A stretch of DNA of 64,000 nucleotides from an uncultured Pelagibacteraceae bacterium (GTDB lineage Bacteria > Pseudomonadota > Alphaproteobacteria > Pelagibacterales > Pelagibacteraceae), in assembly GCA_902555945.1 (NCBI GenBank), contig CACDUS010000004.1:54782-118781 (forward strand), read 5' to 3'. The notes below the pieces were generated by a model that saw only the letters and a program-made list of their open reading frames with translations, ran no database searches and had not been told where the DNA came from. Of this stretch, positions 14,675 to 19,702 are shown piece after piece; within the stretch, counting starts at the first letter, position 1; the number at the start of each line of letters is the position of its first letter. A program made the translations under genes and the position numbers.

Positions 14675-15431
14675 TTATTACGCCTTAAAAGCAATTTATC
14701 TTCATGAAATGGATCGCTTTAGAAGAACTATGACCCAATCATTATTGTCTCCAGTGTTAACTACTTCATTGTATTTTATAGTTTTTGGATCTGTCATAGG
14801 CGGCTATGTTGAAAAAATAGATGGTATTAGCTACGGTTCTTATATCGTACCTGGTCTTTTGATGTTAACGTTGTTAACTCAATCAATCAGTAACACATCT
14901 TTTGGAATTTTTTTTCCAAAATTTAATGGAACAATATATGAGATATTAGCCGCACCTATTTCTACTTTAGAAGTGGTTCTAGCTTTTGTTGGAGCAGGTG
15001 CTACTAAAACACTAATAGTCGGACTTGTGATATTTATAACTTCATTATTCTTTGTTGAGGTACAAGTTGAGTATCCTTTATTGATGATATTTTTACTAGT
15101 TTTAGTAGCTTTTACTTTTGCATTATTTGGTTTTTTAATTGGATTAATGAGTTCTAATTTTGAACAAATGTCAATTATTCCCACATTATTTATAACTCCA
15201 ATGGTTTTTTTAGGAGGAAGTTTATACTCCCTGGATATGTTGCCACCTTTCTGGCAAACAATCACTTATTTTAATCCTGTTGTTTACTTAATTAATGGTT
15301 TGAGATTTTCTTTTTATGGAGTTTCTGATTTTAACATATGGATTAGTATTGGAACAATGATTTCCTTTTTATTAATTTGTGTAACAGTCGTTACAGTGCT
15401 TTTGAAAAAAGGTTATAATATTAAATCTTAA
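14664..15431 (+). CDS. ABC-2 type transporter permease
   Basis: ABC2 membrane protein; overlaps the ATPase gene; [33 protein letters not shown]. Confidence 0.9.
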
Positions 15432-16582
15432 GAAGAAGCTATTTTTTTTTTAGGATCATAAAAAGGTTTTTCAACTACACTACAATCAAATTCATTGTTA
15501 TTTGTTTTAAATTTAAACTTACCACCTATTTCAGTATGATCTATTGATAACATAGCAAGAGCAATATTCTTTTTTAATCTAGGTGAATAAACAGCAGAAG
15601 TTACTTTACCAATTTCTTTATCATTATTATAAATTGACCAAAAAGTTGTGTTAGGACCTTTTAATGGCTCGCAATGTAATTCTAGGCCAACTTGTTTTCT
15701 TTTAATACCTTCTTTTTTAATTTTTTTTAAAGCTTCTTTACCAACAAAATTAATTTCACTATCTAAATTTATTAAACGATCTAAACCTAATTCGAATGGA
15801 TTTGTGTTGATGTCTGCATCAGCATGATAAGAAAGCATTCCACCTTCAATTCTTCTTATAGAAGATGTGTGACCAGGCTTTAGACCATGCTCTTTTCCAG
15901 CTTCCATAATTTTTTCATAAAGATCATTACCTTTTGATCCATCTCTTAAATAAATCTCATACCCAAGTTCGCTTGACCATCCTGTTCTTGATACAATAAG
16001 TGGAATTCCATCCAAACTGTACTCTCTTAACCAATAATATTTCAAACTTTGTATGTCTTCGCCAAATAATTTAATCATAATTTTTCCAGAATTTGGCCCT
16101 TGTAACTGCAATGGTGACACATCAGGCTCAGTAATTTTAACATTTAAACCAGAGTTTACAGCGACTCCTTGCGCCCATAACAAAATATCACTATCAGCTA
16201 ATGATAACCAAAAATGATTTTCTGCTAATCTTAAAAGGACAGGATCATTTAAAATTCCCCCATCATTATTAACGATTAATACATATTTACATTGACCAAC
16301 CTCTAATTTTGAAAGATCTCTTGGAGTTAATAATTGGGTGAATTTGTATGCATCCGGCCCTGTGATTTCAACCTGCCTTTCAACTGCAACATCACATAAA
16401 ATAGCTTTTTCAATTAAATTCCAAAAGTTTTGTTCAGGACTTCCAAAATCTCTTGGAATATACATATGATTGTAAACCGAAAATCCTGTTGCTCCCCATT
16501 TAACAGTTGAGTCAAAATATGGTGATTTTCTTATTTGAGTACCAAAACCAAAATTTTTATTAATCATAAAAGGTCGTAGCAC
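15428..16582 (-). CDS. DMSP demethylase-like / GcvT-fold aminomethyltransferase family protein
   Basis: DVAVERQVEITGPDAYKFTQLLTPRDLSKLEVGQCKYVLIVNNDGGILNDPV and RIEGGMLSYHADADINTNPFELGLDRLI, DmdA-like. Confidence 0.7.
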   Translation of the reverse strand: MLRPFMINKNFGFGTQIRKSPYFDSTVKWGATGFSVYNHMYIPRDFGSPEQNFWNLIEKAILCDVAVERQVEITGPDAYKFTQLLTPRDLSKLEVGQCKYVLIVNNDGGILNDPVLLRLAENHFWLSLADSDILLWAQGVAVNSGLNVKITEPDVSPLQLQGPNSGKIMIKLFGEDIQSLKYYWLREYSLDGIPLIVSRTGWSSELGYEIYLRDGSKGNDLYEKIMEAGKEHGLKPGHTSSIRRIEGGMLSYHADADINTNPFELGLDRLINLDSEINFVGKEALKKIKKEGIKRKQVGLELHCEPLKGPNTTFWSIYNNDKEIGKVTSAVYSPRLKKNIALAMLSIDHTEIGGKFKFKTNNNEFDCSVVEKPFYDPKKKIASS

Positions 16583-16669: not shown

Positions 16670-17944
16670 TTAGAATTGTTCAGACTCTGTCGAGCCTTCC
16701 ATTGCTGTGGTTGAGCTCTTTCCACTACTTATCGTATTAGAAACAGCATCAAAATAAGAAGTACCAACTTCTCTTTGATGTTTTACACTAGTGTAACCAT
16801 CTTTTTCACGAGCAAATTCTTGTTGTTGGATTCTTGAATAAGCAGTCATACCTTCTTTCTTATATTTTTCCGCTAATTCAAAAATTGCAATATTTTGAGT
16901 ATGAAATCCTGCTAAAGTAATAAACTGAAACTTGTAACCCATTTTACTTATCTCTTTTTGGAAAGAGGCAATTTCGTCATCTGACAAATGTTTTTTCCAA
17001 TTAAATGAAGGAGAACAATTGTAAGCTAAAAGTTTTCCCGGAAATTTTTCATGTATTGCATCAGCAAATTTTTTTGCTTCTTCTAAATTTGGTGTTGCTG
17101 TTTCACACCAAATTAAATCTGAATATGGTGCATAAGCTAAACCTCTAGAAATAGCTTGATCGATGCCTGCTTTAACATAATAGAATCCTTCTGGAGATCT
17201 TTCACCAGTTAAAAATGGTTTGTCATTTTCATCATGATCGTTTGTAATTAGTTTTGCTGCATTAGCATCTGTTCTAGCAAGTATAATTAATGGCACATCA
17301 GCTATATCAGCGGCCAATCTTGCAGCCTTTAAATTTTTAATCATAGTACCTGTTGGAACAAGTACTTTTCCTCCCATATGACCACATTTTTTTTCACTAG
17401 CTAACTGATCTTCAAAATGAACGCCAGCTGCGCCAGCTTTAATAAATTTTTTTGCAAGTTCAAAAACATTTAACGGACCACCGAATCCAGCCTCACCATC
17501 AGCAATAATTGGCAACATATAATCTACTTTATTTTCTTTTTTCATGTCACCATCTAGTAATTCCATATGTTGAATTTGATCTGCTCTTATTAAAGCATTA
17601 TTCATCGACTCAACCAATTTAGGAGCACTGTCATAAGGATACAAAGATTGATCTGGATACATTTCACCAGCACTGTTCGCATCTGCCGCCACTTGCCATC
17701 CACTTAAATATATTGCTTTTAATCCAGCTTTAGCATGTTGGACTGCATGATTTCCAGATAAAGAACCAAGTGTATTTACATAAGGTTCTGTGTTTAATAA
17801 ATTCCATAATTTCTTTGATTGATGTTTGCATAAAGAATACTCAATTTTAATTGAACCTCTTAATCTCTCAACATCCTCAGGAGTATAATCTCTTTTTATT
17901 CCTGCAAATCTTTTTAAGTCGTATGAGATATTTTCTGCACTCAT
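16670..17944 (-). CDS. aceA: Isocitrate lyase
   Basis: [56 protein letters not shown]. Confidence 0.95.
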
Positions 17945-17998: not shown

Positions 17999-18160
17999 TT
18001 AGTTTGAGTCGTTTAGGGTCTCAACTAGATCTTTCATTCCACTTGAACCCCAATCACAATGATCATCTCTCATGTAGATTCCTCTGCTATTATGTTTAGC
18101 TAGGTCCTCATGTCTTATGATTTGAGCCTCATTTTCGTTGTTTTTTAATTTTTCGTCCAT
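17999..18160 (-). CDS. Small conserved-looking protein (53 aa), not in ORF track
   Basis: MDEKLKNNENEAQIIRHEDLAKHNSRGIYMRDDHCDWGSSGMKDLVETLNDSN; continuous frame upstream of aceA. Confidence 0.6.
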   Translation of the reverse strand: MDEKLKNNENEAQIIRHEDLAKHNSRGIYMRDDHCDWGSSGMKDLVETLNDSN

Positions 18161-18173
18161 GTAAATTTTATAA

Positions 18174-18263
18174 TTTACAAGATTTACAAAATCTACATAA
18201 ATATATAAAAAGCTTGTAAATTAAGGAAAAAATTTGTAAAAATAAATTTACAAAATTTACAAA
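18174..18263. promoter_or_regulatory. Operator array of TTTACAAA/TTTGTAAA sites
   Basis: Six near-identical copies at 18174, 18183, 18214, 18233, 18247 and 18256 in the divergent promoter region. Confidence 0.65.
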
Positions 18264-18271
18264 TAGAAAAT

Positions 18272-19702
18272 ATGAGTCAATTAGATTTAAAAATTGGTCC
18301 AAAAATAAAGGCTTTTAGAAGACAACTAGGACTTCAAGCAAACAAACTTGCAGAAGAATTAAACATTTCCCCAAGTTATTTAAATCTTATTGAGGGAGGC
18401 AAAAGGAAAATTGATGGAGATTTACTTTTAAAAATCTGTGAAAAATTAAATATTGAGCTTTCTCAATTAACATCAAAAACAGATGTAAATTTAGAAAATA
18501 CTTTATCTGAAATTTTAGATGATAGATTATTTGAGGATTTGGATATTTTAGGTCCTGAGGTCAAGGATTTAGTGAGCACTAACCCTAAGATTGGAAAGGC
18601 AATTGTTAGATTGGGTGATATTCTAAAGAAAAAAGATCATGAACTAATTAATAAAATTGAAAAACTATCTGGAAAAATAGTTGATAATAGAAAAAATTCT
18701 TTTCCTGGAGAAGTGATATCAGATTTTCTTCAAGATAATAAAAATTATTTTCCAAAATTAGAGGACTTTGCAAATAAAGTTTTTGAAAAAGTACAAAAAA
18801 ATAATCGTACAAGATATATAGCTTTATGTGATTATTTAAAATCAGAGTATGGAATAACTGTTAAAGACGTTATTCCTGAAGAAGACAAGCCTTTTTCAAA
18901 AATTTACCATAAAAATAAAAAAGAATTATTATTAAGTGATTATAGTTCATTAGAAACAAAGAAACTTCATGCAGCAGCCCAAATTGCTCAAATGGGTGCC
19001 AATAAAGAAATTGAAGAGTACTTATCTAATTTCTCTTTTCCTTCTGAGGAGTCAAAAAAATTAACAAAAGTTGCATTATTAAATTATTGTGGAGCCGCAA
19101 TTTTAATGCCTTATAAACTTTTTCATTCTGAGTGTAAAAAACTTAAATATGATTTAGAATTATTGCAGAATACTTTTGCAACTTCTTTTGAACAAGTAGC
19201 TCATAGGGTTACATGTTTACAAGATCCTAAATTACCAGGTATTCCATTTCATTTTTTAAGAGTAGATATGGCTGGTAATATTTCTAAAAGATTTTCTTTG
19301 TCAGGAATTGAAATTCCAAGATATGGAGGAGCTTGTCCTAGATGGAATGTTTATTCTGCCTTTACAAGACCTGGTGTTATTCAAAGTGCAGTCAGTAAAA
19401 TGACTAATGGTGAAAAATATGTTTGTATTGCAAGAACTGTTGAAAAAGGAATAGGAAGATTTGGAAGAACAAAAAGTATTTTATCAATTGGCCTTGGTTG
19501 TGACGCCAAATATGCAAAAGATTTTGTTTATACAGAAAATATTAACGTGAATGATAAATCTACAGAAATTCCCATAGGTGTGTCATGTAGAACATGTGAT
19601 AGATTGGACTGTTCTCAAAGAGCCTTTCCTCCATTACATAAAAAATTTGACGTTGATATAAATTTAAGAGGAGTTTCAGTCTACGTAGGTGATAAAAATT
19701 AA
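18272..19702 (+). CDS. XRE-family regulator, short-chain fatty acyl/RamB-like (ScfR) type
   Basis: HTH IKAFRRQLGLQANKLAEELNISPSYLNLIEGGKRK plus C-terminal Cys-rich region GVSCRTCDRLDCSQRAFPPLHKKFDVD. Confidence 0.85.
   Translation: MSQLDLKIGPKIKAFRRQLGLQANKLAEELNISPSYLNLIEGGKRKIDGDLLLKICEKLNIELSQLTSKTDVNLENTLSEILDDRLFEDLDILGPEVKDLVSTNPKIGKAIVRLGDILKKKDHELINKIEKLSGKIVDNRKNSFPGEVISDFLQDNKNYFPKLEDFANKVFEKVQKNNRTRYIALCDYLKSEYGITVKDVIPEEDKPFSKIYHKNKKELLLSDYSSLETKKLHAAAQIAQMGANKEIEEYLSNFSFPSEESKKLTKVALLNYCGAAILMPYKLFHSECKKLKYDLELLQNTFATSFEQVAHRVTCLQDPKLPGIPFHFLRVDMAGNISKRFSLSGIEIPRYGGACPRWNVYSAFTRPGVIQSAVSKMTNGEKYVCIARTVEKGIGRFGRTKSILSIGLGCDAKYAKDFVYTENINVNDKSTEIPIGVSCRTCDRLDCSQRAFPPLHKKFDVDINLRGVSVYVGDKN

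Follow-up and report, generated by a model that had tools for sequence, protein, structure and literature searches.

A six-box array between ramB and the aceA unit

Comparative analysis of the DNA between a ramB-like gene and the isocitrate lyase unit of this SAR11 bacterium leads us to conclude that the six boxes at 18174-18263 are a real array and very probably a RamB operator, composed of a known type of site and distinguished by a fixed multi-box geometry. We propose that the array is a RamB-operated switch for two divergent units, of which one, on the minus strand, comprises a 53-aa ORF and aceA and the other, on the plus strand, is ramB; to this proposal as a whole we assign a probability of roughly 0.78. 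The narrower prediction, that the array is an operator of the protein encoded at 18272-19702 and serves both units, is very likely to be correct.

Direct reading of the sequence revealed six TTTACAAA/TTTGTAAA boxes with at most one mismatch within 90 bp. Boxes A1 (18174-18181, plus strand, TTTACAAG) and A2 (18183-18190, plus strand, TTTACAAA) form tandem pair A with a 9-bp period. They are followed by two single boxes on the minus strand, C (18213-18220; plus strand CTTGTAAA), located 39 or 40 bp from A1, and D (18233-18240; plus strand TTTGTAAA), located 20 bp from C. Tandem pair E consists of E1 (18247-18254, plus strand, TTTACAAA) and E2 (18256-18263, plus strand, TTTACAAA). Six near-identical boxes, two tandem pairs with a 9-nt period and an inverted pair at 18233/18247 had been described in an earlier note on this DNA, and all of them were read in the same way here. 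A weak third 9-bp repeat next to pair A (A3, 18192-18199, plus strand, TCTACATA) was considered as a seventh box and rejected; its mean entropy of 0.87 bit is at the level of the spacers (0.90 bit), and it more probably belongs to the -35 region of the minus-strand promoter.

Within the window, that is the whole 64-kb stretch of DNA analysed, this is the sole six-box cluster. The 8-mer itself is not enriched in the window (21 occurrences, 19.4 expected), so that only its clustering counts. Scored with an TTTACAAA template derived from the array locus itself, the intergenic region (18161-18271, 111 bp, 86% A+T) contains 4 exact and 6 one-mismatch boxes, compared with means of 0.08 and 1.22 and maxima of 2 and 5 in 5000 dinucleotide shuffles of the same stretch. 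In 60 shuffles of the whole window the maxima per 90 bp were 2 exact and 5 near boxes; 4 exact or 6 near boxes were never reached. In the remaining intergenic DNA of the window exact copies are absent and the density is 0.65 box per 111 bp, and the idea that the motif might be equally dense in any AT-rich intergenic DNA, which the earlier note had named as grounds for refuting an operator, is not borne out.

Clustering was assessed within the window and the rest of the bacterium's own genome was covered by pattern search. In the 1.14-Mb assembly TTTACNNNNTTTACA occurs four times, twice within the array, and the reversed control pattern eight times. Among the one-mismatch 17-bp pairs elsewhere, which lie within coding genes, this search gave no sign of a wider RamB regulon in the genome; two looser pairs are situated on other contigs.

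The regulator encoded at 18272-19702

The ramB-like gene (18272-19702, plus strand) encodes a protein with HTH, IrrE-like and ScfR C-terminal domains. Profile searches identified HTH_3, PF06114 (IrrE-like M78) and PF09856 (197.9 bits), all over their cut-offs, and the protein matches the structures of M. tuberculosis PrpR (1.7e-66). The NCBIfam model for the RamB equivalog (NF038139) is matched over its full length with 365.9 bits, below the curated cut-off of 700; by this model the protein is classed as a relative of the family and not as an equivalog. An alignment with M. tuberculosis PrpR showed correspondence of the [4Fe-4S] cysteines (C355, C439, C442 and C447; C-X2-C-X4-C plus a fourth Cys) and of the CoA-clamp histidine (H311, corresponding to PrpR His319). 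His233 occupies the position of PrpR Phe240, where Phe or Tyr is found in other genera. Pro145 stands in the place of PrpR Phe155, the residue that governs ligand selectivity and is replaced by His in the RamB of M. tuberculosis, so that the alignment does not point to a particular ligand.

About nine SAR11 genomes (loci L051-L059; G294, G154, G222, G290, G152, G202, G137, G184 and G266) have a second HTH fused ahead of the first one in RamB. The open frame of this double-HTH form comprises 565-580 aa, its two HTH copies are about 55-70% identical and the operator array is unchanged. At L055 and L059 the ramB start codon falls inside box E2. In one further genome (G234:C2:118297-119722) the ramB reading frame is seemingly interrupted by a frameshift at around residue 400, which may reflect a pseudogene or an assembly error.

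Conservation of the boxes and linkage to ramB

The phylogenetic footprinting suggested in the earlier note was carried out on 70 genus-level loci and bore out the boxes. The mean entropy of box columns is 0.17 bit, that of spacers 0.90 bit (Mann-Whitney p 1e-9, an optimistic value given that the loci are related and the effective number of sequences is 21). Hardly any variation is seen in the TTTAC cores of A1, A2, E1 and E2 or in the GTAAA cores of C and D, whereas the spacers have diverged. TTTAC is invariant in A1 in all 70 orthologs and likewise in A2, GTAAA is invariant in C and TGTAAA in D, and E1 displays the highest conservation of all boxes, with a mean entropy of 0.02 bit. Of 68 loci, 55 have A1 and E1 spaced by 73 bp and the other 13 by 74 bp. 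Indels are otherwise common in the same set of loci, in which the small ORF and aceA are separated by anything between 33 and 92 bp. The pair at A and the central GTAAA box persist in the family's other genera, often along with a 9-bp pair near the ramB start; their spacings differ. Judged from these alignments, the boxes are under selection in genomes with ramB.

In all 90 SAR11-family ramB loci examined, ramB is divergent to aceA. Among 297 genomes of the family, 114 have both genes, 174 have neither, two have ramB only (partial matches, end fragments) and seven have aceA only, three of these being contig-end cases and four remaining informative. The Fisher p of 1e-70 for this co-occurrence is not literal, as the genomes are related. 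In these four, which kept aceA and lost ramB, the DNA beside aceA has changed: no array is found at L112 and L114, and at L113 and L115 its TTTAC/GTAAA cores are eroded. The TTTAC cores of pair A are altered at both L113 and L115, and at L115 CTTGTAAAT has in addition become CTTGTGAAT, the ancestral form of the eroded boxes being judged from congeners. In this small sample the direction of operator decay after ramB loss is the one expected if the boxes serve RamB. Upstream of aceA, L114 and L115 carry tRNA-gene-like DNA in or near the former ramB site.

Comparison with known RamB and PrpR sites

Among 26 ramB loci from Alphaproteobacteria outside SAR11, an aceA match lies beside ramB in 18. 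The 200-bp regions upstream of these 26 ramB genes contain 98 TTTAC/GTAAA cores, where shuffles yield 15.4 (sd 3.8) and at most 28. The exact 9-bp core pair is present in 12 of the regions (shuffles: 0.05, maximum 2).

For the RamB of P. denitrificans Pd1222, a class 2 ScfR protein, mutation of two boxes abolishes binding and promoter activity; according to the published oligonucleotides, these boxes are TGACAAACCTTACA and TGACAATACTGACT (PMC10370305). In our reading both follow the pattern TKAC-N5-TKAC, a 9-bp unit that matches the TTAC-N5-TTAC of the SAR11 array. The two systems also have in common that ramB is divergent to glyoxylate-shunt genes, that the operator contains 9-bp tandem TKAC pairs and that the regulator is a ScfR-family protein, tetrameric and CoA-ester-responsive in P. 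denitrificans and predicted to be so in SAR11. They differ in their layout. In P. denitrificans two tandem-pair boxes 18 bp apart lie upstream of aceB-aceA and serve an activator, whereas the SAR11 pairs are 73-74 bp apart from start to start, with two single boxes between them, one pair lies inside the core promoter, and aceA stands without glcB, which is located elsewhere. Two boxes 18 bp apart are thus not a feature of the SAR11 array; those features of alphaproteobacterial class-2-type RamB loci that it displays are the divergent glyoxylate-cycle gene and the TKAC pairs with a 9-bp period.

M. tuberculosis PrpR protects TTTGCAAA-n-TTTGCgAA at prpD-prpR, which comprises two 8-bp boxes with 1 bp between them (PMC3420887). 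The SAR11 locus resembles this system in the 9-bp period, the divergent gene pair, the CoA-clamp His and the [4Fe-4S] Cys (PMC3420887, PMC6765138). PrpR has a symmetric TTTGCAAA core and a single pair, and its targets are prpDC and icl1; SAR11, in contrast, has the TTTACAAA core, two pairs plus singles, and Pro145 in place of the selectivity residue.

C. glutamicum RamB is similar to the predicted SAR11 regulator in its control of aceA. It also controls aceB, and its site is AA/GAACTTTGCAAA, a box that contains TTTGCAAA (PMC4448153). Its 13-bp sites lie over many promoters and define a broad regulon, whereas a second array was not found in the SAR11 genome. The TTTGCAAA core of Corynebacterium and PrpR was tried as an array site and rejected; it occurs three times in the window, which is no enrichment, and is absent from the array. 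The earlier note took Corynebacterium RamB as its model; on the basis of these sequences Paracoccus RamB is the better one.

The array layout had also been called unusual, a view that the comparison does not sustain. Tandem pairs with a 9-bp period are already known from the ScfR family (PMC3420887), they recur in P. denitrificans and in the 12 other ramB upstream regions, and by sequence they are normal ScfR-family sites; the pair emerges as a common ScfR operator unit from Mycobacterium to SAR11, even at 86% A+T. What is distinctive is the combination of two pairs and two singles in a fixed geometry over two predicted divergent promoters. The central proposal of the earlier note, an auto- and aceA-regulatory RamB/ScfR operator, is backed by the footprint, the co-occurrence of the genes, the decay after ramB loss and the match in motif and period elsewhere.

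The aceA side, promoters and proposed mechanism

The aceA gene (isocitrate lyase; 16670-17944, minus strand; NF011645, 731.8 bits, cut-off 562) does not directly abut the array. The array does lie between the aceA unit and ramB, as the earlier note stated, but a conserved 53-aa ORF (17999-18160, minus strand), overlooked in that note, intervenes as the first gene of this unit. Searches of the 53-aa ORF against Pfam and NCBIfam profiles gave no matches. Its substitutions fall on codon positions 1, 2 and 3 at 25, 20 and 55% (39 sequences), and we conclude that it evolves as a coding gene. The encoded protein carries an RDDHCDWGSSGM motif, and the ORF is found ahead of aceA across much of SAR11.

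A putative -10 element of the small-ORF/aceA promoter, TATAAA (18167-18172, minus strand), is located 6 nt before the ATG at 18160. Its TATAA is invariant, and 66 of 68 genus loci have a TATA(A/G)-type hexamer with a 6-nt gap to the small-ORF ATG. A gap of this length suggests that the transcript starts at or beside the ATG and is leaderless. The putative -35-like element TAGATT (18190-18195, minus strand), 17 bp from the -10, is found in 45 of 68 loci of this genus and is weak as a -35. The sister genera have a clearer arrangement, TTGnnn-17-TATAGT-6/7-ATG, at all 11 of their loci, with TACAGT at one. Pair A fills the 17-bp spacer in the genus itself, and in the sister genera it overlaps the spacer and the -10. 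For ramB, a candidate promoter (18214-18242, plus strand) can be read from TTGTAA (18214-18219) and TAAAAA (18237-18242) with 17 bp between them; this is a possible but weak promoter and would overlap boxes C and D. A consensus promoter scanner applied to the locus flagged neither the aceA-side nor the ramB promoter.

The malate synthase gene glcB was considered as a further RamB target and rejected. It has two TTTAC cores 11 bp apart in the bacterium's own genome, and these are unconserved in 29 relatives, among which no conserved boxes and no 9-bp pair were found. Some relatives (L296, L297, L303, L305-L313) carry tandem-glycine-riboswitch-like sequences upstream of glcB; a glycine riboswitch is absent upstream of glcB in the own genome (L120), where an Rfam search gave no matches.

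In the mechanism that we propose, one tandem pair would be read by one RamB dimer, and a tetramer could hold several boxes together. Since pair A lies within the -35/-10 spacer, RamB bound there would most likely block transcription of aceA, and we lean towards net repression of aceA by RamB. Binding at C, D and E would damp ramB, resulting in autoregulation. The distance between pairs A and E corresponds to about seven turns of the helix, at which a single tetramer might span both by forming a small loop; we consider such bridging or looping rather doubtful, and the fixed spacing could instead stem from constraints of the overlapping promoters. The complex would be loosened by a ligand bound in the acyl-CoA pocket, by loss of the predicted [4Fe-4S] cluster or by both, and aceA and ramB would be released together.

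Alternative explanations

RamB might instead act mainly as an activator of aceA, with ligand-bound dimers at C, D and E recruiting RNA polymerase and pair A positioning the protein at the core promoter. P. denitrificans RamB activates its glyoxylate operon and needs both boxes to do so, and the authors of that study propose that the RamB tetramer represses and the dimer activates (PMC10370305). Boxes C to E lie about 53-103 bp upstream of the predicted aceA-side start, a usual position for activators, and a weak -35 is typical of activated promoters. Pair A, however, is equally conserved and is situated in the -35/-10 spacer, overlapping the -10 in sister genera, where a bound protein normally blocks the polymerase, and the RamB proteins of C. 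glutamicum and M. tuberculosis repress glyoxylate genes (PMC3420887, PMC4448153). We therefore regard activation as the main role of RamB at aceA as unlikely, though it is the best-placed competitor of the repressing switch.

A role of RamB as a mere neighbour, with the array bound by another regulator such as the iron regulators Fur, Irr or RirA, would fit the rise of aceA and of the ramB orthologue under iron limitation in Ca. P. ubique. The consensus sites of Fur, Irr and RirA are not known to resemble TTTAC-N4-TTTAC. The boxes erode with the loss of ramB although aceA is kept, and the same core and 9-bp period are found at ramB across Alphaproteobacteria and in validated RamB sites, which makes a different regulator very improbable.

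The inverted boxes could also be the arms of an RNA structure, a leader or an attenuator. The folding of either strand is more favourable than that of shuffled sequences (z about -3.8), as any inverted copies would show, but outside the invariant cores the arms mostly break uncompensated, only 13-68% of weighted sequences keep many of the flanking pairs and the alignment is without covariation. An Rfam search at the array gave no matches, the aceA-side transcript is apparently leaderless and 9-bp tandem pairs have no role in a hairpin; we give this explanation hardly any weight. Chance recurrence of AT-rich 8-mers, suggested by the near-expected 8-mer count in the window and by the base composition of the region, is negligible, as the clustering exceeds that in every shuffle and in other intergenic DNA and conservation of the boxes extends over 70 loci.

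A possible link to iron limitation

Returning to the RamB-operated switch, published expression data from Ca. P. ubique under iron limitation bear on its possible signal. Both aceA (SAR11_1240; 1.58-fold, p 0.091) and the transcription regulator SAR11_1242 (1.60-fold, p 0.054) were up (PMC2864753). The gene order azlC-sfuA-sfuB-sfuC-unknown-aceA-small ORF-ramB in genome G026, in which the sfu and azl names are our own reading of the ORFs, matches the SAR11 locus numbers, so that SAR11_1242 is very probably the RamB orthologue. G026 carries the full array (L091). Since the sfu genes come after the aceA unit and share its strand, read-through from sfu is not the cause of the aceA rise. Higher expression of SAR11 isocitrate lyase in iron-poor Southern Ocean water is mentioned in a passage of PMC6618146, which cites it from other work.

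It is conceivable, and we put it forward tentatively in view of the weak expression evidence, that SAR11 RamB is an iron-status switch in which the predicted [4Fe-4S] cluster holds the repressing form on the array. Iron shortage would then release aceA and ramB together and shunt carbon past iron-rich steps. If this is true, the array would provide the cis element so far lacking for the induction of the SAR11 glyoxylate shunt reported under iron limitation, and this published, unexplained induction would become testable with one protein and one 111-bp probe. The analysis itself gives the SAR11 regulator a genus-wide conserved operator map, probably with one operon as its sole target, and connects it to central carbon flow.

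The gene adjoining aceA on its other side differs between the two genomes. In the window it is a GcvT-like gene (15428-16582, minus strand) that scores 389 bits against a DMSP demethylase model with a cut-off of 410; in G026 the place of this DMSP-demethylase-like gene 3' of aceA is taken by an ORF of 97 aa together with an operon for an iron transporter.
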